The translations under genes were made by a program, and so were the position numbers. Shown piece after piece: positions 14,196-22,918 of a stretch of 64,000 bases of DNA; the stretch's first letter is position 1, and each line of letters opens with the position of its first letter. Below the pieces are notes generated by a model. It did no database searches. It saw only the letters and a program-made list of their open reading frames with translations, and was not told where the DNA came from. Origin of the DNA: Mucilaginibacter inviolabilis (lineage in GTDB: Bacteria; Bacteroidota; Bacteroidia; Sphingobacteriales; Sphingobacteriaceae); NCBI RefSeq assembly GCF_011089895.1, contig NZ_JAANAT010000004.1, positions 496,001 to 560,000 on the forward strand, read 5' to 3'.

Positions 14196-14582
14196 TTAAG
14201 GTACCTGATTAATATGCGATACCGAGAATTTTAGCCCCATGATGCCTATCATGATGAGAGAGATGAAGAAAGCTTCGGTCCAGGTGATGGTTTTGTTGAA
14301 GAAGGCCATTTCGGCGATTTTGATGAATACCAGCGTGGCGGCGGTCCAGATGGCATATGCGGTGGCTGTGGAGAGCTCTTTGATGGCCAGGGAGAAGAAA
14401 TATACGTTACACACTCCAAACAGGATATAGCCCAGCAATGGCGCCAATAAAGGGAAGCTTACATCAACCCGGTAAAAGTTGTGCCAGGTAAGCAGTTTAA
14501 GATCGCTTAATTTAAAGTACTTTACCGAAAATGTCCATGCGGTTTCAAATACTGCTGCTATGATGATGTATATCCAGGCCAA
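14196..14582 (-). CDS. Small multidrug resistance (SMR) superfamily transporter
   Basis: A four-helix inner-membrane protein of 128 aa. Helix 1 has the membrane-buried glutamate of the family (AAVFETAW, Glu13), and helix 3 has LSTATAYAIWTAATLVF, matching the AYAIW motif of EmrE-type pumps. It starts 11 bases after the fatty-acid-hydroxylase-like gene, so the two form an operon. SMR relatives include drug pumps and the ArnE/ArnF lipid-sugar flippases. Because of the glycan cluster just upstream, flipping of a lipid-linked sugar is an alternative to drug export. Confidence 0.82.
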   Translation of the reverse strand: MAWIYIIIAAVFETAWTFSVKYFKLSDLKLLTWHNFYRVDVSFPLLAPLLGYILFGVCNVYFFSLAIKELSTATAYAIWTAATLVFIKIAEMAFFNKTITWTEAFFISLIMIGIMGLKFSVSHINQVP

Positions 14583-14592
14583 TTTTATCGGG

Positions 14593-15564
14593 TTATTGCA
14601 AAATTTCCTCTTGCGGGTGAGTGGTTATGGTTGTATCTATGGTTGCAGATGGGGGTAAAGCATCTGCTTTTGAATAATGTTTTTGCCATGGTGATAACAA
14701 CAAAGATAAAATAGCCGGGCGTAAATTATAGTAACGTTCAAACCATTTATATTTCAGTAGCTTTTTTTCGTCGAAACGTTTCACCGAAAAGGCGTGCTGC
14801 ATAAAATAATCTCTGGGGTATTCGTAACCCAGTCCCCAGTTTTCGCGTTCATTGCCAGGCGGATGTCCCGGATCGTAAGCGCTGCCAAACAGGTGATCCC
14901 ATATCGAAAATTTGGTAGCAAAATTGGCATGGAAAACTTCGATGTAGTTGGCATGGTGCCACAAATGCAGCTCGGGTGTGTTGAGGATGTATTTGAGCTT
15001 GCCCAGTTTTACGTTCACATTGGCGTGTATAAACATGCCAAACATGGCATCCAATAGGGCCTTGATGGGTATTACAGCCGGATCAGCACCTAATAAAATA
15101 ATGGGTGCAAACTCAATGGTTTGGTTAATGATAATTTCGATGATATGCGAGCGCGAGCCGGATAAAAAGTCGACCTCTTTGCCTGAGTGGTGTGCCTCAT
15201 GGGTACGCCAAAGAAACTTGCTGCGATGCTGTAAGCGATGAAACAGATAGATATACAAGTCGTGCGTCACCAGGAAAAACAATACCTGCACAGCGATTGG
15301 CCAATGGGCTACAAACTGAAAGGACGACCAATCCAAATGGTGCTGAATAGGGGCGATGATATAATCAAATATCAGGATCTTTAAAAAATAGCTTTGAATG
15401 AGCGTATACCATACCAAATCGATCCAGAAACCTTCTCTGAAAAATTTTAGCCCTTTACGGTATGGCGATACCCGTTCCCAGGTAATAATGAATATTACCC
15501 ACAAAACCAGTATCGTAGTGGTAATGGTAAGTAGTTTTTCCTGTGGCATTTTCTTTATTATCAA
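14593..15564 (-). CDS. Sterol desaturase/fatty acid hydroxylase superfamily membrane protein
   Basis: Integral di-iron enzyme. The histidine boxes are present: HDLYIYLFHRLQH, THEAHH and, later, HLWHH with VFHANF, interspersed with four or so hydrophobic stretches in the first 200 residues. Members hydroxylate or desaturate fatty acyl chains, sterols or alkylglycerols. 323 aa. The start at 15564 gives MIIKKMPQEKLL; a second Met six codons in is also possible. It is followed by the SMR gene at 11 bases, and separated from the upstream sugar cluster by a 110-base perfect-repeat region that may end the upstream transcript. Confidence 0.82.
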   Translation of the reverse strand: MIIKKMPQEKLLTITTTILVLWVIFIITWERVSPYRKGLKFFREGFWIDLVWYTLIQSYFLKILIFDYIIAPIQHHLDWSSFQFVAHWPIAVQVLFFLVTHDLYIYLFHRLQHRSKFLWRTHEAHHSGKEVDFLSGSRSHIIEIIINQTIEFAPIILLGADPAVIPIKALLDAMFGMFIHANVNVKLGKLKYILNTPELHLWHHANYIEVFHANFATKFSIWDHLFGSAYDPGHPPGNERENWGLGYEYPRDYFMQHAFSVKRFDEKKLLKYKWFERYYNLRPAILSLLLSPWQKHYSKADALPPSATIDTTITTHPQEEILQ

Positions 15565-15674: not shown

Positions 15675-16478
15675 CTATATCGCTGTCCATCCGCCGTCAA
15701 CTACGAGGTTGGCGCCGGTCATGTAGGCGGAGGCATCGCTGGCTAAAAATATCAGCGCGCCCTGGTAATCGTTAGACTTTGCCATACGGCCCAGTAATGT
15801 TTTGGCCGAATAGTTCTGTACAAAAAAATCGTTCTGGTTATTCTCTACACCACCCGGCGACAGGGTATTTACCCGTACCCCTTTATTACCCCAATAGGCA
15901 GCCAGAAAACGGGTGAAGTTGATGACCGCACCTTTGGTTACCGGGTAAGCTGCCGATTTATAAAAATCCTGTTCGCCCTGTGGGTTTTTGTATATGGATT
16001 GGTCGGGACCTACCATACCATAGGTAGATGCCACATTGATGATACTGCCCGAACCCTGATCGGCCATCACGGTACCAAACACCTGTGAGCACAAGAATAC
16101 GCCGGTCACATTTACATTCAGCGATTGCTGAAATGCCGCGAGCGGATAGTTTTCAAATGCCGAAAGCTCTTTGGCCATAGCCGGGTTTTCGAACATATCA
16201 TTAATGGCAGCGTTATTCACCAGTATATCTATACTGCCGTAGCGGGTTAGTATCTGTTCGCGGGCAATTTCCAGCGAATGTTTGCTGGTTACGTCAATCT
16301 TTAAACCGCCGTGCTGTGCGCCAAGCTTTGCGGCAAAGGCTTCCACCTTTTTTTCGTCCATATCGGCAGCCACCACATTAGCACCGGCCAAAGCCAGCGC
16401 TTCGCAATGCTTTTGCCCGATAAGGCCTAGTGCCCCGGTCACGATAGCCGTTTTTCCCTGTAATGAAAATAGTTCCAT
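15675..16478 (-). CDS. SDR-family oxidoreductase of the glycan cluster
   Basis: Classical short-chain dehydrogenase, 267 aa, with cofactor site [11 protein letters not shown] (15-25), the VNNAA structural motif near 87-91, a catalytic Ser in NVASTYG and YPVTK as the Tyr-x-x-x-Lys pair, and the C-terminal [13 protein letters not shown]. Last gene of a tight minus-strand operon: the aminotransferase start-to-stop gap is 6 bases. A role in oxidising or reducing a sugar carbonyl before or after transamination is inferred from the neighbours. It resembles the SDRs found in surface-glycan loci rather than FabG. Confidence 0.85.
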
Positions 16479-16484
16479 ATATTT

Positions 16485-17828
16485 TTATAACGCGGCGGTT
16501 TTTGGCTTGATGTTATAGTTGTTCACTTTGCGGAAAACAGCCTCCAGTACTTCGCCTTTTAGATAGCTTTTCACATCGCCGCTTAAAATGGCTTCTTTTA
16601 CCAGTTGTAATACGTCGCGGTAGGCTAAAAGCGTATAATCAATATCTTCAGAATTATGGCTGAAACACATATTGTGGAAACCGGCCCAAAGGATACCGCG
16701 TTTAATCATTTCCTGCTGCATCAGGGTTTTTAGTTCCAGTGCATTGCCTGCTTCGGGTGTAAAAGTTACCATACTGCGGCAGTTATAACCTATGCAGCGG
16801 GTATATTTATCCATACCTAATGATATGGCTATCTCGTTATAACCGTCTTTTAGCAAGGCGCCATGCTGATCAAGGTATTGTGGTACTTTTTTATCGCGCA
16901 GCTCATTGATGGTAGCTATACAGGCTGCTAATGATAAAGCTTCACCGCCAAAGGTGGTATAGCTAAATACTTCGGAATTGAAGAGTTCCATCACATCTGC
17001 ACGGCCGGTAAGCAAGGCTATAGGCATACCATTAGCGCAAGCTTTGGAGAATACTGCCAAATCGGCCTTTACGTTAAAATATTCTTGCGCACCGCCCAGG
17101 GCAATACGGAAGCCGGTCCACATTTCATCAAAAATGAGCAGGGTACCATTTTCGCGGCATACTTCGGCCAGTTCCTGTAAAAAGCCTGGTTTGGGGGCTT
17201 CGAAAATAAAAGGCTCCAATATCAGGGCAGCAACGCTTTCGTCTAAGGCTGCTTTTATCGATTCGATGTCGTTGTATTCAAAAGTGTAGGTAAGATCCTG
17301 TATGGCGCCGGGAATACCTGCATTGCGGCTGGTGATACCGATGTACCAATCGTGCCAGCCGTGGTATCCGCAGCAAAATACTTTATCGCGGCCGGTGAAT
17401 GCACGGGCAACACGTATAGCGGCCGAACAAACATCGGCGCCTGTTTTTGAGATTTTAACCGCCTCGGCATTCGGGATCACCTGTTGTACCAGTTCAGAAA
17501 GCTCCACTTCCAGCGGGTGCATCAGCGAAAAGGTGATACCATCATTCAGTTGTTCGCGGATAGCATCATCAACAACCGGGTAAGCGTAACCTAAAGAGAT
17601 AGGGCCAATAGCCGAATTATAGTCGATATATTCATTGCCGTCCGCATCCCAAACGTGTGATCCTTTACCTTTTACCAGGTATTTGGGTGCTACGCCTTTG
17701 CTAAACTGCCCCGGACCTTTAGCCAGGGTTTGGGTTACAGGTTTTTGAACTTTTAACGCGCGGTTGTATATTTTGTCCGACTCAGTGATGTCGGGATAGT
17801 TATTGTTTAACTGTATTTTATTAGCCAT
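16485..17828 (-). CDS. Class III PLP aminotransferase, glutamate-1-semialdehyde aminomutase-like
   Basis: Fold-type I PLP enzyme of 447 aa. Visible are KISKTGADVCSAAIRVARAFTGR and YHGWHDWYIG (PLP-phosphate and ring stacking region), LIFDEMWTGFR with the Asp that contacts the pyridine nitrogen, and VFSKACANGMPIALLTGR with the presumed Schiff-base lysine. It resembles HemL but lacks its usual context; enzymes of this type in polysaccharide loci aminate a sugar aldehyde or ketone. It lies 14 bases after the transketolase C-subunit and 6 bases before the SDR, clearly one operon. True HemL function is unlikely given these partners. Confidence 0.85.
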   Translation of the reverse strand: MANKIQLNNNYPDITESDKIYNRALKVQKPVTQTLAKGPGQFSKGVAPKYLVKGKGSHVWDADGNEYIDYNSAIGPISLGYAYPVVDDAIREQLNDGITFSLMHPLEVELSELVQQVIPNAEAVKISKTGADVCSAAIRVARAFTGRDKVFCCGYHGWHDWYIGITSRNAGIPGAIQDLTYTFEYNDIESIKAALDESVAALILEPFIFEAPKPGFLQELAEVCRENGTLLIFDEMWTGFRIALGGAQEYFNVKADLAVFSKACANGMPIALLTGRADVMELFNSEVFSYTTFGGEALSLAACIATINELRDKKVPQYLDQHGALLKDGYNEIAISLGMDKYTRCIGYNCRSMVTFTPEAGNALELKTLMQQEMIKRGILWAGFHNMCFSHNSEDIDYTLLAYRDVLQLVKEAILSGDVKSYLKGEVLEAVFRKVNNYNIKPKTAAL

Positions 17829-17842
17829 GGTTAATTCTTTTT

Positions 17843-18796
17843 TTATTCTGAAAATTCAGGGGTTAATATAGATGGTTGTGAGTACCCGGTTTGATAGCCT
17901 AATATCCGCTCGGCTATTTGTTTGCCCGAGAAACCTTCATTTTGTAATACATCGGGTAATAATGCCGGTCTGAACCATCTTTCTTTTAAGGCGATAGGCA
18001 TCACTTTGGCGGTGGTTTGGTATTGCAATAATACTTCGGCTACAATGGTGTATAAGCCGCCGGTCAGGAAATGATCTTCGAGGGTAACTACGAGATTGCT
18101 GCTGGCTGCTACTTGCAGAATGATAGCCTCGTCAACCGGTTTAAGGCTGCGCATGTTCACCAGGCCAACTGATAAACCTTCGTTTTTCAATACTTCAACA
18201 GCAATAAGCGCCTGCTCAAACATCAATCCGTAGGTTAAAATGGTTACATCAGTGCCTGAAGAGATTACCTCGGCTTTGCCTAATTCAAAAGGCGCATGCA
18301 CGTGACTGGTTTTACGGGTGTTGATGCGGGTGTACGCTGGGTTAGGCGATTTCCAGATCTCTGGTAACATTTTTACCAGGTCGTCCTCATCAGCGGGGGC
18401 AAATACGGTTACGTTGGGAATGCCCCGCATAATGGAAATGTCTTCAATAGCCTGGTGGGTAGGGCCGTTGGCGTCTGATAAAAAGCCGGGGATAAAACCG
18501 CTTAGTTTACCCGGTAAATTGGCAATACCCAGGTCGGTACGTACAAATTCAAAAGCGCGCATGGTTAAAAACGCCGCTAAAGCATGTATCACAGGCCTGC
18601 GGCCGCGCAGGGCCAAACCCGCTGCTGCACCTATCATAGTTTGCTCGGTAATGCCGGTATCAATAAAACGTTTACCCAAAACGGCAGGCAGGTTACGTAC
18701 CAGCGCACGGTTTTCGGCTGTCATCACTATTACCTGTTCATCGTTCAGGGCCGTTTCGGTTAGTAATTCTTCGTAGGTCATGGGGTTATCTGACAA
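17843..18796 (-). CDS. Transketolase, C-terminal subunit (split transketolase)
   Basis: Carries the pyrimidine-binding domain (residues about 10-170), with GITEQTMIGAAAGLALRG containing the glutamate that activates thiamine pyrophosphate, and the C-terminal transketolase domain (about 190-310, VTLEDHFLTGGLYTIVAEVL). 317 aa. The reading frame overlaps the N-terminal subunit gene by 11 bases, which implies translational coupling and a heteromeric enzyme. Split transketolases occur in archaea and in some bacterial surface-glycan or secondary pathways, beside a separate housekeeping enzyme. Confidence 0.9.
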   Translation of the reverse strand: MSDNPMTYEELLTETALNDEQVIVMTAENRALVRNLPAVLGKRFIDTGITEQTMIGAAAGLALRGRRPVIHALAAFLTMRAFEFVRTDLGIANLPGKLSGFIPGFLSDANGPTHQAIEDISIMRGIPNVTVFAPADEDDLVKMLPEIWKSPNPAYTRINTRKTSHVHAPFELGKAEVISSGTDVTILTYGLMFEQALIAVEVLKNEGLSVGLVNMRSLKPVDEAIILQVAASSNLVVTLEDHFLTGGLYTIVAEVLLQYQTTAKVMPIALKERWFRPALLPDVLQNEGFSGKQIAERILGYQTGYSQPSILTPEFSE

Positions 18797-19649
18797 TTAA
18801 AGTTTCTGATGTTAATGATGTGGTGTGTTCACCATGCAATTCCAGTAAAAGCTGCTCAACTTCGTCGGCCGAGAAATTGCAGAACCAACGGTCGGCGCGT
18901 TCCTGTATGCTGGGTAAACCTTTGCCTCTTATGGTATCAGCAATAACCACGTTGAGCTTACCTTGCTGAAAAGGGTAGGCGCTGAAAGCCTCGTGTAACT
19001 CGGTATAGCTATGTCCGTTGATGCGTTTCACTGCTGCGCCAAATGATTCAAATTTTTGTGCTAAAGGTTCCAATGGTATCAGGTCTTCGGTACGCATATT
19101 AGCTTGGAAATGGTTACGGTCGATCACGAAGATCAGGTTATCCAAAGCATAGGCATTAGCTACCAGAACCGCTTCCCAGCAAGTGCCTTCGTTTAGCTCG
19201 CCATCGCCCATAATGCAGATCACTTTGTTGCTGCTACCGCTGATTTTCAGGTCCAGAGCAACACCTATAGCTACCGAAGGTAAATGTCCCAGGGACCCTG
19301 AATGAAACTCCACTCCGGGAATATGGGTATTGGGGTGCCAGTAAATATGGTCGTTCAAAGAAAGATGATTGTTTAGTCTTTCTTTTTCCATGAAGCCCAA
19401 TTCTACCAGTGTGCCGTATAGGGCAGGTACATCATGGCCTTTTGACAGGAAGAGGTAATCCCTGTCGGCATCTTTTAAGTTTGCGGGGGTAAGGTTCAAA
19501 AATTCGCTGTACAAATAAACGATCATATCAACTGCCGATAATGAGGCGCCTGTAAAGCAGCCGCCGGCGGTTGACATGCGTACAATATGTTCGCGTACTT
19601 TTAATGCTACGGCTTGTAAATCCTGTTCGCTATGTTTTGTGTTTTCCAC
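18786..19649 (-). CDS. Transketolase, N-terminal subunit (split transketolase)
   Basis: The TPP-pyrophosphate/Mg domain is complete: FLSKGHDVPALYG, SGSLGHLPSVAIG, and GDGELNEGTCWEA with the downstream VIDRN that together form the GDG...N TPP motif. 287 aa. It starts after MENTKHSEQDLQAVALKVREH, with no membrane or export signal, so the enzyme is cytoplasmic. It lies 32 bases after the cytidylyltransferase gene and overlaps the C-subunit. It would move a two-carbon ketol unit, so in this operon a chain-extension or ketose-making step is likely. Confidence 0.9.
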   Translation of the reverse strand: MENTKHSEQDLQAVALKVREHIVRMSTAGGCFTGASLSAVDMIVYLYSEFLNLTPANLKDADRDYLFLSKGHDVPALYGTLVELGFMEKERLNNHLSLNDHIYWHPNTHIPGVEFHSGSLGHLPSVAIGVALDLKISGSSNKVICIMGDGELNEGTCWEAVLVANAYALDNLIFVIDRNHFQANMRTEDLIPLEPLAQKFESFGAAVKRINGHSYTELHEAFSAYPFQQGKLNVVIADTIRGKGLPSIQERADRWFCNFSADEVEQLLLELHGEHTTSLTSETLIVR

Positions 19650-19681
19650 GGGGTAATGGTTATATGGGTAAATTTAAATAT

Positions 19682-20488
19682 TTATTGGCTAACCGGGGCC
19701 TGTTTGGTTTGCTCCGGTTGTATGGTTTTTAACTCGTTTAAGTGATTACGGTACCAGTTTACACCGGCATAGCTGGCATTGATCTGGTAGATCTCCGGTT
19801 TGCGATCCAGCAGATCCAGAATATCAGCACATGAAAAGTTTTTGTTTGCAGGATAAAGTTCTTCAAACACCCTTTTGATGAATAGGTAGTCTTCCTGGTA
19901 ATCAATGGTGAAACGGTGCGACATGGAATAATCCAAACCGGTTTCCCAGGTCACATTGTCAATATTGAACAATTGCGGGTTTTCCCAGATATAAGGAGTA
20001 GTATGTTCCAGCTCCAGCTGTTTCTCCGCATTTTCCCAGGCTTGTTTCAGGCATGACATAGTCATGATCTCTACATCATTACCATCGGGCCAGGTAGCCG
20101 GATGCAGGTTACTTACATAATCGGGGATGTTAGCCTGCTCAAAAAAATAAGTAAGCACACGGTCTATAGCTTGCGGATCTATCAGCGGACAATCAGAAGG
20201 GATTTTGAGTACTACATCTGCATGGTGCAGCAGTGCAGCCTGATAGTGCCTGTCGAGCAGGTTATTCTGATCGCCCCGGTAACAAGGTATATTTAGCAAG
20301 CGTGCTTCCTGTTCAATAATATCATCCTCAGAATTAACAGATGTAGCAATAACAAAAACGGCCTTATGCTGTATCATCTGCAGGCGTTCTACCATCATAG
20401 CCAATATGCTTTTACCTAAAACAGGTAACAACACCTTGCCGGGTAAACGGGTTGATGCCATACGGGCCTGTACAATGATAACTACCAT
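19682..20488 (-). CDS. SpsF-like cytidylyltransferase family protein
   Basis: 268 aa. The N-terminus VIIVQARMASTRLPGKVLLP (about residues 3-22) is the signature of the SpsF/CMP-sugar synthetase family, with the nucleotide-binding R-x-x-S-x-R-x-P-x-K arrangement. KIPSDCPLIDPQAID (about 98-112) is the metal/acceptor motif. The predicted role is activation of a sugar acid or sugar phosphate with CTP. Together with the transketolase, aminotransferase and SDR this suggests a nucleotide-activated amino sugar. The final product cannot be named from the sequence. Confidence 0.85.
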   Translation of the reverse strand: MVVIIVQARMASTRLPGKVLLPVLGKSILAMMVERLQMIQHKAVFVIATSVNSEDDIIEQEARLLNIPCYRGDQNNLLDRHYQAALLHHADVVLKIPSDCPLIDPQAIDRVLTYFFEQANIPDYVSNLHPATWPDGNDVEIMTMSCLKQAWENAEKQLELEHTTPYIWENPQLFNIDNVTWETGLDYSMSHRFTIDYQEDYLFIKRVFEELYPANKNFSCADILDLLDRKPEIYQINASYAGVNWYRNHLNELKTIQPEQTKQAPVSQ

Positions 20489-20496
20489 TTTTTAAT

Positions 20497-20630
20497 TATT
20501 GAATTAGTGATTTAGTGAATTATTGATTTTTTACTTGAGTTTAAAATTTGGATTCTGTCTTTACTACCTAGTTCCTTATTCCAAAAATCCTTGTTCTTTG
20601 CTCTCCCAATCCTTGTTCCAAAAATTAATA
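20497..20630. repeat. Intergenic short-word arrays (GAATTAGTGATTTAGT; CCTTGTTCCAAAAAT)
   Basis: The left half repeats ATTATTGAATTAGTGATTTAGTG-like words; the right half has TTCCTTATTCCAAAAATCC, TTGCTCTCCCAATCC and CTTGTTCCAAAAATT, the same words as at 14131-14192 and 22960-22993. It fills the 136 bases between two same-strand genes, so the glycosyltransferase-like gene may be a separate transcription unit. Confidence 0.5.
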
Positions 20631-21677
20631 ATTAGCCACTAGTTTTTTGGCATAAAAAGGAATGCCCTGTGTGTTTAAAGCTTTTTGCACATCAAAATTT
20701 TCGGGTATACCCATGTGATTAATATAGGCCCGGCATACCTGAGCTATTTTATTTGCTGAAATGCCCCCGTTTTGAAGCGGGGCCAGTCTTTTTAGCTCGT
20801 CAACATCAAACCAGGAATGTACCGGTTTACCTAAAGCTATACCTGTATATACTACGGTTGAGTATTGAGTAATGAGCTCGCAGCAATTGGCTATCATTTG
20901 ATTGGTGTTACCCGATTTAAAGATCATAGTATTTGCCGGAGCATATTTCCTGATCTCTTTTTCGGCACGTTCTGCGTCTTCATTTGGGTGCAATTTGAAA
21001 AGCAATGGTCTGCCATTGGCTATTACTACTGCTTTTTTAATAAAGGCCGGACGGTTCTCAAAACGATAGGTTTCGCGCATATCGGTGGTAGCAACCATCA
21101 CATAATCGCGGTGCGGGAAGTCATTATCCCTAAATTGCTCCAGGTTATCATAATTAGGCATACCGGTTACCGCTATCTTGCGCTCCTCGGTGCCGTTTTT
21201 TATAAAGTACTGACGATAGCCAGGTGATGCTGAGCAATAGATATCGCACACGTTTGATGAACCGTTTAATGAAGTGTTGCCGCATAAAAAAGTAGGCAGC
21301 TTCAGCGTCTTTACTATTTTACTCAGCAGCGTATATTTATCAACCATACCCTCCTGTACCCAAACCGTTTTGGTTTTACGCATGCGCCGCGGTACTAATA
21401 TATCTGAGCAAAAAACTACCAGGTCATACTGGTTTAATCTTGCTCCGTAATCAATTTGCAGCCCGTGTTGGTGCAGGTATTTTTCGGAGTTGGTACGATA
21501 GTAGTTGGATAATATTGTACCGTTAAGAAATGAGGTATGATTAATTAATAAGTTTAGTATATAGTTGTCTGTAAATAGCTGACTGAACCAGCAATCAAAC
21601 TCGGGAAGTTCGTTTGCTATCTGGTGCATTTGTGATGTTTGGTTTATAGAACCGGTTATAAACAGTATTTTCTGCAT
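20625..21677 (-). CDS. GT-B-fold transferase, CDP-glycerol glycerophosphotransferase-like
   Basis: 350 aa, no signal peptide. The C-terminal half has RPLLFKLHPNED, a Lys-rich stretch, then ANCCELITQYSTVVYTGIALGKPVHS, the donor-binding pattern seen in CDP-glycerol glycerophosphotransferases and capsule-type GT-B enzymes. The start at 21677 gives MQKILFITGSINQTSQ, a typical GT-B first strand. It is the 5'-most gene of the sugar cluster, so it could transfer the CMP-activated product. I cannot assign donor or acceptor. Its stop lies within the short-word array. Confidence 0.65.
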   Translation of the reverse strand: MQKILFITGSINQTSQMHQIANELPEFDCWFSQLFTDNYILNLLINHTSFLNGTILSNYYRTNSEKYLHQHGLQIDYGARLNQYDLVVFCSDILVPRRMRKTKTVWVQEGMVDKYTLLSKIVKTLKLPTFLCGNTSLNGSSNVCDIYCSASPGYRQYFIKNGTEERKIAVTGMPNYDNLEQFRDNDFPHRDYVMVATTDMRETYRFENRPAFIKKAVVIANGRPLLFKLHPNEDAERAEKEIRKYAPANTMIFKSGNTNQMIANCCELITQYSTVVYTGIALGKPVHSWFDVDELKRLAPLQNGGISANKIAQVCRAYINHMGIPENFDVQKALNTQGIPFYAKKLVANY

Positions 21678-21903: not shown

Positions 21904-22746
21904 TTACTTTGCATTGGCTGAAAACGCGACGCGCTTGGTCAAAAAGTTTTTAAGTTCAGGAAGTTTATCCGTATTGATCAGATCGACACCACAGTCGAGT
22001 AATTCATTCCAAACCACCGGTTTTTCGGGCGATGCCCATAGGCGTACCTTTTTGCCATACCGGTGTGCCATACTTACATATTTACATAAACGTTGCTTTT
22101 GTAAAACGGGGAAGGTTCCGTTGCCATTCCAATTCACCAACCGCGAGTATTTGCAGCTTGCTGTACGGTAAATATTTGTTGATGAAGTGTCCTGCTGAAC
22201 CTTCATTAGGTCCTCATCAATAAATGCCAAACGGTTTTGCTGGTTTTTCAGGATATCAAAGGGCTTATTACCGGTTATCACAATGGTGATCTGGCGCTGA
22301 ACAAATATACCATTTTCGTAACCCGAAAGTATGTTTTTATATTTTTCAAGTACTTCAGACAGCGCTTCGTATGTTTTAGCCGCGTTTGATTTGATATCGA
22401 TCATCAGCGTAATAGGGTAAACAATGCGGGATTCCTGCTCGTTTGAGCCATTGATACAACTAGCCAGCGGATCAAGGTAAAGGCTTTCCAGGGTCCGGTG
22501 CCTTTTTAAAACCGGTAACATATGAGCTACAATAAGCTTTCCGTGCCGTAAATAGATATCAGCTTCTATATGGGTATACCCGTTATCCAAAGCATCGTAC
22601 AAGGGGCGTTTGTGCCAATAATCATTATGGGCAAAAGCGTTGGCGAGCGGGACATTTTGGGAGTAGGAGTTAAAGGCAGTAAATGCGAGTAGAACTAAGA
22701 ACAATAATTTCAGGTGCTTTAGGCAAAAGCTTGCTGCTTGCATCAT
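21904..22746 (-). CDS. Secreted PI-PLC/GDPD-superfamily phosphodiesterase (AIM6-like)
   Basis: I choose the ATG at 22746 (or the adjacent 22743): it gives MMQAASFCLKHLKLLFLVLLAFTAFNSYSQ, a clean signal peptide, and a TAGCTTTG -7 box lies 17 bases upstream, inside the longer open frame that reaches 22857. The mature enzyme begins with AFAHNDYWHKRPLYDALDNG and THIEADIYLRHGKLIVAHML, the His, Glu and Asp residues of the phosphodiesterase TIM barrel, and ends with VRLWASPEKPVVWNELLDCGVDLINTD. Likely hydrolyses glycerophospho- or inositol-phosphodiesters in the periplasm. It follows SusC/SusD on the same strand. Confidence 0.8.
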   Translation of the reverse strand: MMQAASFCLKHLKLLFLVLLAFTAFNSYSQNVPLANAFAHNDYWHKRPLYDALDNGYTHIEADIYLRHGKLIVAHMLPVLKRHRTLESLYLDPLASCINGSNEQESRIVYPITLMIDIKSNAAKTYEALSEVLEKYKNILSGYENGIFVQRQITIVITGNKPFDILKNQQNRLAFIDEDLMKVQQDTSSTNIYRTASCKYSRLVNWNGNGTFPVLQKQRLCKYVSMAHRYGKKVRLWASPEKPVVWNELLDCGVDLINTDKLPELKNFLTKRVAFSANAK

Positions 22747-22763
22747 TAATTGTTTTTGTTGCA

Positions 22764-22771
22764 CAAAGCTA
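22764..22771 (-). promoter_or_regulatory. -7 promoter box of the phosphodiesterase gene
   Basis: Reads TAGCTTTG on the minus strand, an exact TAnnTTTG, 17 bases before the preferred start at 22746. If used, it makes a start at 22857 impossible and gives this gene its own promoter besides any readthrough from SusD. Confidence 0.45.
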
Positions 22772-22918
22772 CCTGTTAAATGTGTTTTAAATATTAGCAC
22801 ATGGTTAACAAATTTTTCATTGATGTTAACTTTATGTAAAGGGGATTTTTGGAACAAGGAGTAATGATTTTTGGAATATGGATAGTGGAAAAAAGATAAA
22901 AAATGCGAGAATAAAAAA

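Follow-up and report, generated by a model that had tools for sequence, protein, structure and literature searches.

A split-transketolase operon in Mucilaginibacter inviolabilis and its likely role in a CMP-ulosonic-acid pathway

We analyzed a 64,000-nucleotide stretch of the genome of Mucilaginibacter inviolabilis (the window) and consider it moderately likely that one of its operons encodes most of a pathway for a CMP-activated ulosonic acid (a sialic-acid-like sugar), with the product probably decorating a membrane lipid. The pathway occurs in roughly a tenth of the 395 Bacteroidota genomes that we sampled (40 with the transketolase and 53 with the aminotransferase). If our reading is correct, environmental bacteria use sialic-acid-like chemistry for their membrane lipids and not for glycans or flagella alone, and they have adapted a transketolase fold to it. 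The locus also illustrates how one relocated gene can make a pathway seem to be without a key enzyme. About ten genes make up this compact set, which is present in named, cultured strains of Mucilaginibacter, Flectobacillus, and Arcicella, so both the sugar and its acceptor are directly testable.

Genes of the operon and their spread

The operon lies on the minus strand and comprises the genes below, in order of transcription (positions are those of the window).

GT, 20625..21677, minus strand: GT-B-fold protein that probably moves the CMP-activated sugar onto its acceptor
CYT, 19682..20488, minus strand: SpsF-type CMP-sugar-acid synthetase (PF02348)
TKN, 18786..19649, minus strand: N-terminal, ThDP-binding subunit of a split transketolase-like enzyme (Transketolase_N)
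TKC, 17843..18796, minus strand: C-terminal subunit of the same split enzyme (Transket_pyr and Transketolase_C)
AT, 16485..17828, minus strand: class III PLP aminotransferase, GSA-aminomutase-like (Aminotran_3)
SDR, 15675..16478, minus strand: sugar/polyol-type short-chain dehydrogenase (adh_short_C2)
FAH, 14593..15564, minus strand: membrane protein of the fatty-acid-hydroxylase superfamily; the nearest curated model is the ornithine lipid hydroxylase OlsE
SMR, 14196..14582, minus strand: SMR-family small transporter (PF00893), the operon's final gene in this genome

The initial annotation described five tightly packed minus-strand genes (CYT to SDR) preceded by GT, and all six ORFs were found where it had placed them. 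It reported gaps of 6–32 bases and one 11-base overlap among the five, which matches what we measured: 32 bases between CYT and TKN, an overlap of 11 bases between TKN and TKC, and then 14 bases to AT and 6 to SDR. GT is separated from CYT by 136 bases, and SMR starts 10 bases after FAH. The spot between SDR and FAH is normally occupied, in relatives, by a gene that fuses a KdsC-like phosphatase (HAD) to a NeuB-type synthase (NEU); this gene is absent from the locus. Gene content, order, co-occurrence, intactness, and motifs were all observed directly.

The annotation's family calls (cytidylyltransferase, both transketolase subunits, class III aminotransferase, and SDR) agree with the profile matches. 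CYT matches PF02348 at 94 bits (cut-off 22.6), and its nearest solved structure is 6oew ("Cytidylyltransferase", 132 bits), followed by CMP-Kdo synthetases; a CMP-activated sugar acid, as originally proposed, remains the best reading. AT belongs with the PRK06209 group and scores below its cut-off (368 of 486), while a relative from a Pse locus (L108) scores 532. Lys262 of AT, in an SKA motif, is present in 109 of 112 aligned rows (the other three have gaps), and we presume its PLP role from the family. Tyr178 and Lys182 of SDR are present in all 104 rows.

GT has just a weak match to Glyphos_transf, under that family's cut-off. Its AF2 model (pLDDT 84.5, pTM 0.84) predicts a GT-B fold, in keeping with the earlier description of the first gene as GT-B-like. 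The best structural matches are UDP-GlcNAc 2-epimerases, which have the GT-B fold (Z up to 18.5), and then come PglA, TagF, TarL, MurG, and a polysialyltransferase (Z 14–15); in this comparison, a weak or missing relative was not taken as evidence of absence. GT resembles UDP-GlcNAc 2-epimerase in predicted fold without a family match to that enzyme. The motifs HPNE and QEG and the residue S273 are invariant in 42 aligned rows, and we take HP/EG/S motifs to mark CMP/CDP-sugar transferases. GT probably transfers the CMP-activated sugar to an acceptor.

Using tblastn, we found the six core genes in most of 80 related loci (GT in 79, CYT in 80, TKN in 80, TKC in 76, AT in 74, and SDR in 69), and some of these loci are on contigs that end early. 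The unit is therefore far beyond chance, and we rejected a chance cluster. FAH was found in 65 and SMR in 56 of the 80. In a second set of 31 loci, which comprises neighborhoods from 30 of the 40 TKN-bearing genomes of the phylum sample plus that of Methylomagnum, FAH was found in 22 and SMR in 4; SDR and NEU were jointly present or jointly absent in every one of the 31. Neither set consists entirely of independent loci. (We took locus gene counts from tblastn; ORF picks miss genes that lie under longer ORFs on the opposite strand.)

Across the 395 genomes, the genes form nested sets: the 40 genomes with TKN (E ≤ 1e-60) lie within the 53 with AT (E ≤ 1e-120), which lie within the 138 with NEU (E ≤ 1e-70). 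The Fisher p values for this co-occurrence take no account of how the genomes are related. Given this nesting, the best reading of the operon is a pathway of the sialic-acid type that leads to a CMP-ulosonic acid. AT is missing from 85 of the 138 NEU genomes, so NEU has other uses. Overall, the genes co-occur widely and in one order, which is what the annotation had proposed to check.

The pathway is also found on a plasmid of the gammaproteobacterial methanotroph Methylomagnum (L155). AT also has archaeal and rhizobial plasmid homologues; besides Methylomagnum, 3 of the 37 records were examined, and these three lie in other contexts. Viral contigs were scanned with TKN as the single query protein, a search that detects only close relatives, and no carrier was confirmed. 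Among the open-access PMC papers listed as literature matches, there was no account of such a gene set.

The relocated synthase and the transketolase

Of the 80 related loci, 69 contain SDR, and in 63 of these the HAD-NEU gene occupies the interval from SDR to FAH. In M. inviolabilis, the fusion gene is intact on another contig (G000:C1:3222538-3223968), and it also sits away from the operon in all four close relatives tested (91–99% identity). The genome of M. inviolabilis has a separate KdsC-like gene as well (36%). Two results count against our reading. In one other genome (G101), the operon is present without a close HAD-NEU, and elsewhere in that genome there is only a 34%/48% pair. HAD was not found by tblastn in the stretch for 7 of 25 neighborhoods with NEU.

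These results bear on the initial annotation's model, in which no NeuB/KdsA-type aldolase takes part and the transketolase builds a ketose skeleton that AT and SDR complete and CYT activates. Five genes do stand without a NeuB at this locus, and the acceptor side of the transketolase is unusual (see below). However, NEU is found in all 40 TKN genomes, the fusion gene has been relocated in the window's clade rather than lost, and AT-SDR-HAD-NEU operons occur without any transketolase. We rejected a NeuB-free pathway. The case for a skeleton built by the transketolase had rested mainly on the missing NeuB-type synthase, and we regard that model as very improbable. The annotation had also raised the prospect that CYT acts on a known acid made by other genes. 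The acid skeleton should indeed come from another gene, but that gene is part of this same pathway, and it is not known to yield any acid already described.

The transketolase is not a housekeeping paralogue, an alternative that the annotation had flagged. TKN and TKC are just 36% and 30% identical to the genome's own split transketolase, and we rejected the paralogue on the basis of these identities, the replaced acceptor-side residues, and a tree (51 rows, part of the aligned set). In E. coli TktA numbering, the ThDP side of TKN is kept (H66, H100, D155, E160, and N185 in 111 of 111 pathway rows), as are E411 and H473 of TKC (107 of 107 rows). On the acceptor side, H26 aligns with F in 111 of 111 rows, and in 107 of 107 rows of TKC, D469 is replaced by N, H461 (presumably a phosphate ligand) by I, V, or F, and R520 by a residue other than R. 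The genome's own split transketolase retains H26, H461, D469, and R520. The columns for R358, S385, and H261 were too poorly aligned to compare. Only the change of H26 to F separates the pathway enzyme from every transketolase that we compared: a Solidesulfovibrio enzyme likewise departs at 461, 469, and 520, and a Streptomyces enzyme departs at 469.

The transketolase genuinely belongs to the pathway but is optional in it: it is missing from 13 of the 53 AT genomes, and of the eight of these whose neighborhoods we examined, seven had no transketolase match in the stretch and CYT directly followed by AT. In the eighth (L224), a full-length transketolase of another subfamily lies between CYT and AT. 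The genomes without this transketolase weaken the annotation's view of it as the core builder. There is also a tension in the sequences: a HAD domain points to a precursor that carries phosphate, yet the transketolase has lost residues that are taken to bind phosphate.

Proposed pathway and its acceptor

We infer each reaction, the structure of the sugar, and the acceptor. SDR would oxidize and AT would aminate a sugar or sugar phosphate. In this lineage, the dedicated split ThDP transketolase would shift a two-carbon unit, thereby producing or remodeling the precursor. The resulting aldose (or its phosphate) would then be condensed with PEP by NEU, one half of the relocated fusion, to give a 3-deoxy-2-ulosonic acid; the other half, HAD, would strip the phosphate. 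CYT would then form the CMP-sugar, and GT would transfer the sugar to an acceptor, most likely an ornithine-type aminolipid. FAH would hydroxylate the lipid, and SMR may carry the product or the acceptor lipid across the membrane.

If variant enzymes made an ordinary nonulosonic acid (Neu5Ac, Leg, Pse, or Kdn), this would account for the NeuB, the CMP-synthetase, and the phosphatase, which are combined as in the Kdn route. NEU matches PF03102 at 257 bits, and HAD scores 154 bits against a KdsC-family model, above that model's cut-off. But both fall under curated cut-offs: NEU scores 257.6 of 399.65 for NeuB_NnaB and 208.1 of 340.25 for PseI, and HAD, although it reaches 154.3 against the Kdn-9-phosphatase model, needs 180 (the Methylomagnum HAD scores 153.7). 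A domain search did not find a SAF domain in NEU of the window genome (L101), while the PseI-type protein of L108 has one. Among the operon's proteins, family searches gave no UDP- or GDP-HexNAc dehydratase, hydrolase, or epimerase and no NDP-sugar-modifying enzymes, and to our knowledge, AT, SDR, and transketolase play no part in the Kdn route. We judge an ordinary acid to be quite improbable. An aminoshikimate-like route is unlikely too, if less so: SDR and AT would give a 3-amino ketose phosphate, the transketolase would remove two carbons, and NEU would join PEP to the short imino- or amino-aldose phosphate that is left, yielding an amino-heptulosonic or octulosonic acid instead of a nine-carbon one. 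The kinds of genes partly match those of the rifamycin pathway, NeuB taking the position of the DAHP-type synthase. This route is at odds with the operon having no kinase or isomerase, with the loss of the putative phosphate-binding residues, and with the operons that have no transketolase.

Within the ulosonic-acid pathway that we favor, the evidence for a lipid acceptor comes from neighboring genes. FAH matches PF04116 (92 bits) and scores 115.5 against the curated OlsE model, far below its cut-off of 475 (two other FAH proteins score 100.1 and 118.1). OlsF directly follows SMR or FAH in five loci with the transketolase (L157, L179, L184, L161, and L167), all from one family (f17); four of these proteins are above the curated cut-off of 620 (718, 737, 725, and 724), and the fifth, a fragment at a contig end, scores 451. 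At L222, which has no transketolase, FAH is followed by an OlsF-like protein that is 50% identical to that of L157 (it has no curated-model score). In L165 and L176, a divergent OlsB-OlsA pair is found upstream of GT, within 4 kb of it; the Methylomagnum locus has the pair downstream of HAD-LplT. Four lineages (f17, f35, f31, and Methylomagnum) thus have ornithine-lipid synthesis genes inside the operon or close to it, which suggests that the sugar decorates a lipid and makes an ornithine-type aminolipid the likeliest acceptor.

CMP-ulosonic acids usually cap glycans or flagellin, and the same pathway could instead serve LPS, capsule, or protein, with FAH, SMR, and the Ols genes as incidental neighbors or as parts of a separate lipid function. 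Near most loci, no OlsF or OlsB-OlsA was seen, and PF13444 is above its cut-off in just 15 of 38 TKN-bearing genomes (G230 and G431 were left out of the 40), so by this test many of them are without such a lipid synthase. Several glycosyltransferase genes adjoin the Methylomagnum operon. The lipid acceptor is also harder to reconcile with the low OlsE score of FAH, with the restriction of the transketolase-bearing OlsF cases to one family, and with the OlsF-like gene of the window's genome, which scores 422, short of the 620 required, and lies apart from the operon. That the nearest fold of GT is an epimerase and not a transferase counts against our reading as a whole. Against LPS, capsule, or protein stand the retention of FAH at the frequencies given above (in loci that are not all independent), the recurrence of the Ols linkage in four lineages, and the nine neighboring window proteins that we scanned, among which there was no further glycosyltransferase. 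We would put this alternative down as somewhat unlikely. Our more specific proposal of a lipid product is itself tentative: a new class of membrane glycolipid, in which an aminated sialic-acid-like sugar, formed via SDR, a GSA-type aminotransferase, a repurposed transketolase, and a SAF-less NeuB-phosphatase, would be transferred to an ornithine-type aminolipid with the CMP-sugar as donor. Among the open-access literature matches listed, "ornithine lipid" was not found together with nonulosonic acid.

Comparison with known systems

The Kdn-9-phosphate pathway of Bacteroides consists of a synthase, a HAD phosphatase, and a CMP-Kdn synthetase. The operon has the same combination of HAD phosphatase, NeuB-type synthase, and CMP-synthetase, which implies a phosphorylated aldose. 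It differs in adding AT, SDR, and usually a transketolase, in a HAD that falls under the Kdn cut-off, in a NEU without SAF, and in a CYT of the SpsF type. A LysW-type amino acid cluster of Streptomyces NBC_01343 (L189), which we take to be vazabitide-like, also has a split transketolase by an aminotransferase, and its N-terminal subunit is 44% identical to TKN over 80%. However, that is a carrier-protein pathway, and its transketolase keeps H26, H461, and R520 and has Y at D469.

The nonulosonic cluster of Leptospira includes a NeuB-phosphatase fusion, and its product was inferred to be Neu5Ac (PMC3438082). As in HAD-NEU, a synthase is joined to a phosphatase-like domain, and by consecutive accessions the fusion adjoins a CMP-synthetase and an aminotransferase whose step is uncertain; in contrast, the order of the domains is reversed, and the C-terminal domain is described as endonuclease-like (PMC3438082). 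The word "transketolase" does not occur in that text. In rifamycin biosynthesis, the enzymes act in the order oxidoreductase, aminotransferase, phosphatase, kinase, isomerase, transketolase (orf15), and PEP-condensing synthase (PMC8788734). The AHBA pathway shares with the operon an oxidoreductase, an aminotransferase, a phosphatase, a transketolase, and a PEP condensation, but it uses a DAHP-type synthase, starts from a nucleotide sugar, has a kinase, lacks CMP activation, and leads to a secondary metabolite. Finally, the operon touches on ornithine lipid synthesis and hydroxylation (OlsF, OlsB/OlsA, and OlsE), in that FAH resembles OlsE and several lineages have OlsF or OlsB-OlsA within the operon or close by.

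The operon and a HAD-NeuB gene at a distance

The initial annotation had described six minus-strand genes; its coordinates match ours, and its domain assignments agree with our domain searches. On the same strand, two more genes continue beyond SDR.

Genes of the operon in the window
20625-21677, minus: GT, GT-B-fold protein
19682-20488, minus: CYT, SpsF-type cytidylyltransferase; 136 bases from GT
18786-19649, minus: TKN, N subunit of a split transketolase; 32 bases from CYT
17843-18796, minus: TKC, its C subunit; 11-base overlap with TKN
16485-17828, minus: AT, class III PLP aminotransferase; 14 bases from TKC
15675-16478, minus: SDR, short-chain dehydrogenase; 6 bases from AT
14593-15564, minus: FAH, fatty acid hydroxylase superfamily, scoring best among curated models against OlsE (ornithine lipid hydroxylase); 110 bases past SDR
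14196-14582, minus: SMR, small transporter; 10 bases past FAH

In AT, the SKA-motif lysine is kept in 109 of 112 aligned rows (the other three are gaps), and Tyr178 and Lys182 of SDR are kept in all 104. Upstream of GT (21904-22857, minus) lies a short glycerophosphodiester-phosphodiesterase-like gene, a gene shared by 20 of 80 related loci.

The window's genome is 7.1 Mb, and the closest loci by TKN are from Mucilaginibacter (96% to M. lappiensis). Among the best 80 of 254 relatives from a genome scan, in which several contigs stop within the operon, we found GT in 79, CYT in 80, TKN in 80, TKC in 76, AT in 74, SDR in 69, FAH in 65, and SMR in 56. A KdsC-like phosphatase (HAD) and a NeuB-type synthase (NEU) were each present in 63. 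These lie between SDR and FAH, as one gene of ~477 residues or as two of ~170 and ~300 residues.

HAD-NEU is not at this position in the window or in four close relatives (L019, L020, L021, and L024); the two other SDR-bearing loci that lack it there are both near a contig end. The initial annotation had proposed a pathway without any NeuB- or KdsA-type aldolase. However, the window's genome has an intact HAD-NEU of 478 residues, standing alone (G000:C1:3222538-3223968), with 84-85% identity to the copy in the related locus L022. The protein begins with a KdsC-family HAD phosphatase that carries a DxD motif and ends with a NeuB-family synthase. All four close relatives also encode HAD-NEU elsewhere, with 91-99% identity to this copy. 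Thus, the gene was moved rather than lost in the window's clade, and the claim of a missing aldolase does not stand. One single-contig genome (G101) has the operon but no close HAD-NEU: elsewhere it carries just a distantly related HAD/NeuB pair (48% and 34%) and a KdsC-like gene. The pair (L186; G101:C1:3462000-3481000) is perhaps a substitute for HAD-NEU, or perhaps a separate Kdn-like pathway.

Co-occurrence of the gene set

The gene set recurs across the 80 related loci and across 31 further neighbourhoods; the co-occurrence search proposed in the initial annotation gave a positive answer. Among 151 sampled genomes of the family, TKN (E<=1e-70) and close CYT (E<=1e-117) are in the same seven, and six of these have HAD-NEU (E<=1e-60); in two more genomes, the HAD-NEU match reaches just 42%. 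Among 395 genomes of the phylum, TKN is in 40 (E<=1e-60), AT in 53 (E<=1e-120), and NEU in 138 (E<=1e-70). These sets are nested: all 40 TKN genomes have AT and all 53 AT genomes have NEU (Fisher tests gave extreme values, with relatedness ignored), while 85 of the 138 NEU genomes lack AT.

The 31 neighbourhoods come from 30 of the 40 TKN genomes and a plasmid of Methylomagnum ishizawai. GT is in 27 of them, CYT in 27, AT in 29, FAH in 22, and HAD in 18. SDR and NEU are jointly present in 25 and jointly absent locally in six; in seven of the 25, HAD had no match within the stretch. All six genomes without a local NEU have it elsewhere (L231-L236), and NEU is thus present in all 40 TKN genomes. 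At these six sites, HAD and FAH accompany NEU in L231, L232, L234, and L236 (with SDR as well in L234 and L236), only FAH does in L235, and NEU is alone in L233.

Three other arrangements were seen. In family f18 (for example, in L218, L219, and L229), NEU is near HSP90 and VIT1-like genes, with HAD beside it in L218, and no AT, SDR, CYT, or GT is alongside. A second CYT copy (67%; L104:9081-9860, G136:C9) has no other pathway gene within its 19-kb stretch. The Methylomagnum plasmid (NZ_AP019784.1; gammaproteobacterial) carries GT through NEU and HAD, followed by LplT, OlsB-like, and OlsA-like genes, with no match for FAH or SMR; this operon was likely transferred between phyla.

The transketolase

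In a tree, the pathway's TKN sequences form one group (fork support 88/47), separate from the split and full-length transketolases that the genome also encodes; some outgroup branches are very long. The ThDP site is kept. The position of H26 in E. coli TktA is F in all 111 pathway N rows, and in all 107 C rows, D469 is replaced by N, H461 by I, V, or F, and R520 by a residue other than R. The genome's housekeeping split transketolase retains all four. A Solidesulfovibrio transketolase also differs at 461, 469, and 520, and an enzyme from a Streptomyces LysW cluster differs at 469, so only the change of H26 to F separates the pathway enzymes from every compared enzyme. At H261, where the alignment is ambiguous, pathway enzymes have RWF versus KWH in two other split transketolases. 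PMC5073344 describes the docking of aldehydes against H26 and H261 of the E. coli enzyme and reports that S385Y/D469T/R520Q moved acceptance from phosphorylated toward non-phosphorylated and aromatic aldehydes. Together with the replacements, this makes a non-canonical acceptor likely. In Streptomyces sp. NBC_01343, a plasmid locus (L189) has a split transketolase (TKN 44% to the window's) and a DegT-type aminotransferase within a LysW/LysX carrier-protein cluster.

The transketolase is a genuine part of the pathway, though not an obligatory one. TKN is absent from 13 of the 53 AT genomes. In seven operons without it, CYT is separated from AT by 9 to 183 bases and the stretch has no transketolase match; an eighth operon (L224) carries a full-length transketolase from a different subfamily between these two genes. 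Because AT operons occur without TKN, a role for the transketolase in supplying or reshaping a precursor is more likely than one in place of the ulosonic acid synthase.

The acceptor and the sugar

The predicted structure of GT is a good model. Its fold most closely matches UDP-GlcNAc 2-epimerases, with Z up to 18.5, and next, at Z 14-15, PglA, TagF, TarL, MurG, and a polysialyltransferase. It has invariant HPNE and QEG motifs and an invariant serine, which we take to resemble the motifs of CMP/CDP-sugar transferases. Together, fold and motifs suggest that GT is likely a transferase.

Retention of the OlsE-like FAH in most loci and linkage to ornithine-lipid synthesis genes make a lipid the leading, though unproven, acceptor. 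In family f17, OlsF directly follows SMR or FAH in L157 (by 10 bases), L179 (8), L184 (24), L161 (126), and L167 (a 4-base overlap; the gene is cut by the contig end). An OlsF-like gene is 68 bases past FAH in L222 (family f35, without transketolase), divergent OlsB and OlsA lie upstream of GT, ~2 and ~3.6 kb away, in L176 and L165 (f31), the Methylomagnum order is HAD, LplT, OlsB-like, OlsA-like, and a second NEU copy is within ~1 kb of OlsF in two genomes (G184 and G476). The lipid-synthase profile PF13444 is over its cut-off in 15 of 38 TKN genomes, seven of which have the gene by the operon (directly after it in five, within 4 kb in two). Over half of the 38, however, have no PF13444 match above the cut-off, the five cases in f17 do not count as independent, the window genome's OlsF-like gene is unlinked and under cut-off, and the three FAH proteins tested against the OlsE model (115, 100, and 118 bits) are all below its cut-off of 475. 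A calcineurin-like metallophosphoesterase also recurs in f17 and f35, by GT in L157 and L161 and by OlsF in L222 (family confirmed by Pfam); the GT neighbours in L221, L226, and L230 were assigned to it by length and position.

As for the sugar, NEU does not reach the curated cut-offs for Neu and Pse, nor does HAD reach that for Kdn. A Pfam scan found no SAF domain in the window genome's NEU, and no operon protein belongs to an NDP-sugar dehydratase, hydrolase, or epimerase family. Because the tested cut-offs were not reached, we place the gene set among CMP-ulosonic-acid pathways but outside the Neu, Leg, Pse, and Kdn pathways. In literature searches, nonulosonic acid with transketolase gave PMC5047448 and PMC12342839, and the matching passages of the latter do not concern this gene set; SpsF or NeuB with transketolase, and ornithine lipid with nonulosonic acid, gave nothing on it among the matches listed. 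The gene content suggests that SDR and AT turn a hydroxyl into an amine. In L077, AT and SDR are separated by the gene of a GNAT acetyltransferase that is weakly similar to PseH (46.6 of 93.1 bits) and equally weakly to RimI (46.8 of 86.4); it would be compatible with an N-acylated amine, without proving one.

Two same-family genomes put the same enzyme families to another use: Pse-type loci L108 and L110 have SpsF-type CYT and PRK06209-like aminotransferases (over cut-off in L108) with a PseG-PseH fusion, a NeuB-type synthase (in L108, a PseI with a SAF domain), a formyltransferase, and, in L110, a PIG-L protein as well. The rifamycin aminoshikimate route, as described in PMC8788734, uses an oxidoreductase, aminotransferase, phosphatase, kinase, isomerase, transketolase, and PEP condensation. 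These kinds of genes are paralleled in part here, but NeuB replaces the DAHP-type synthase, and the kinase and isomerase are absent from the operon.
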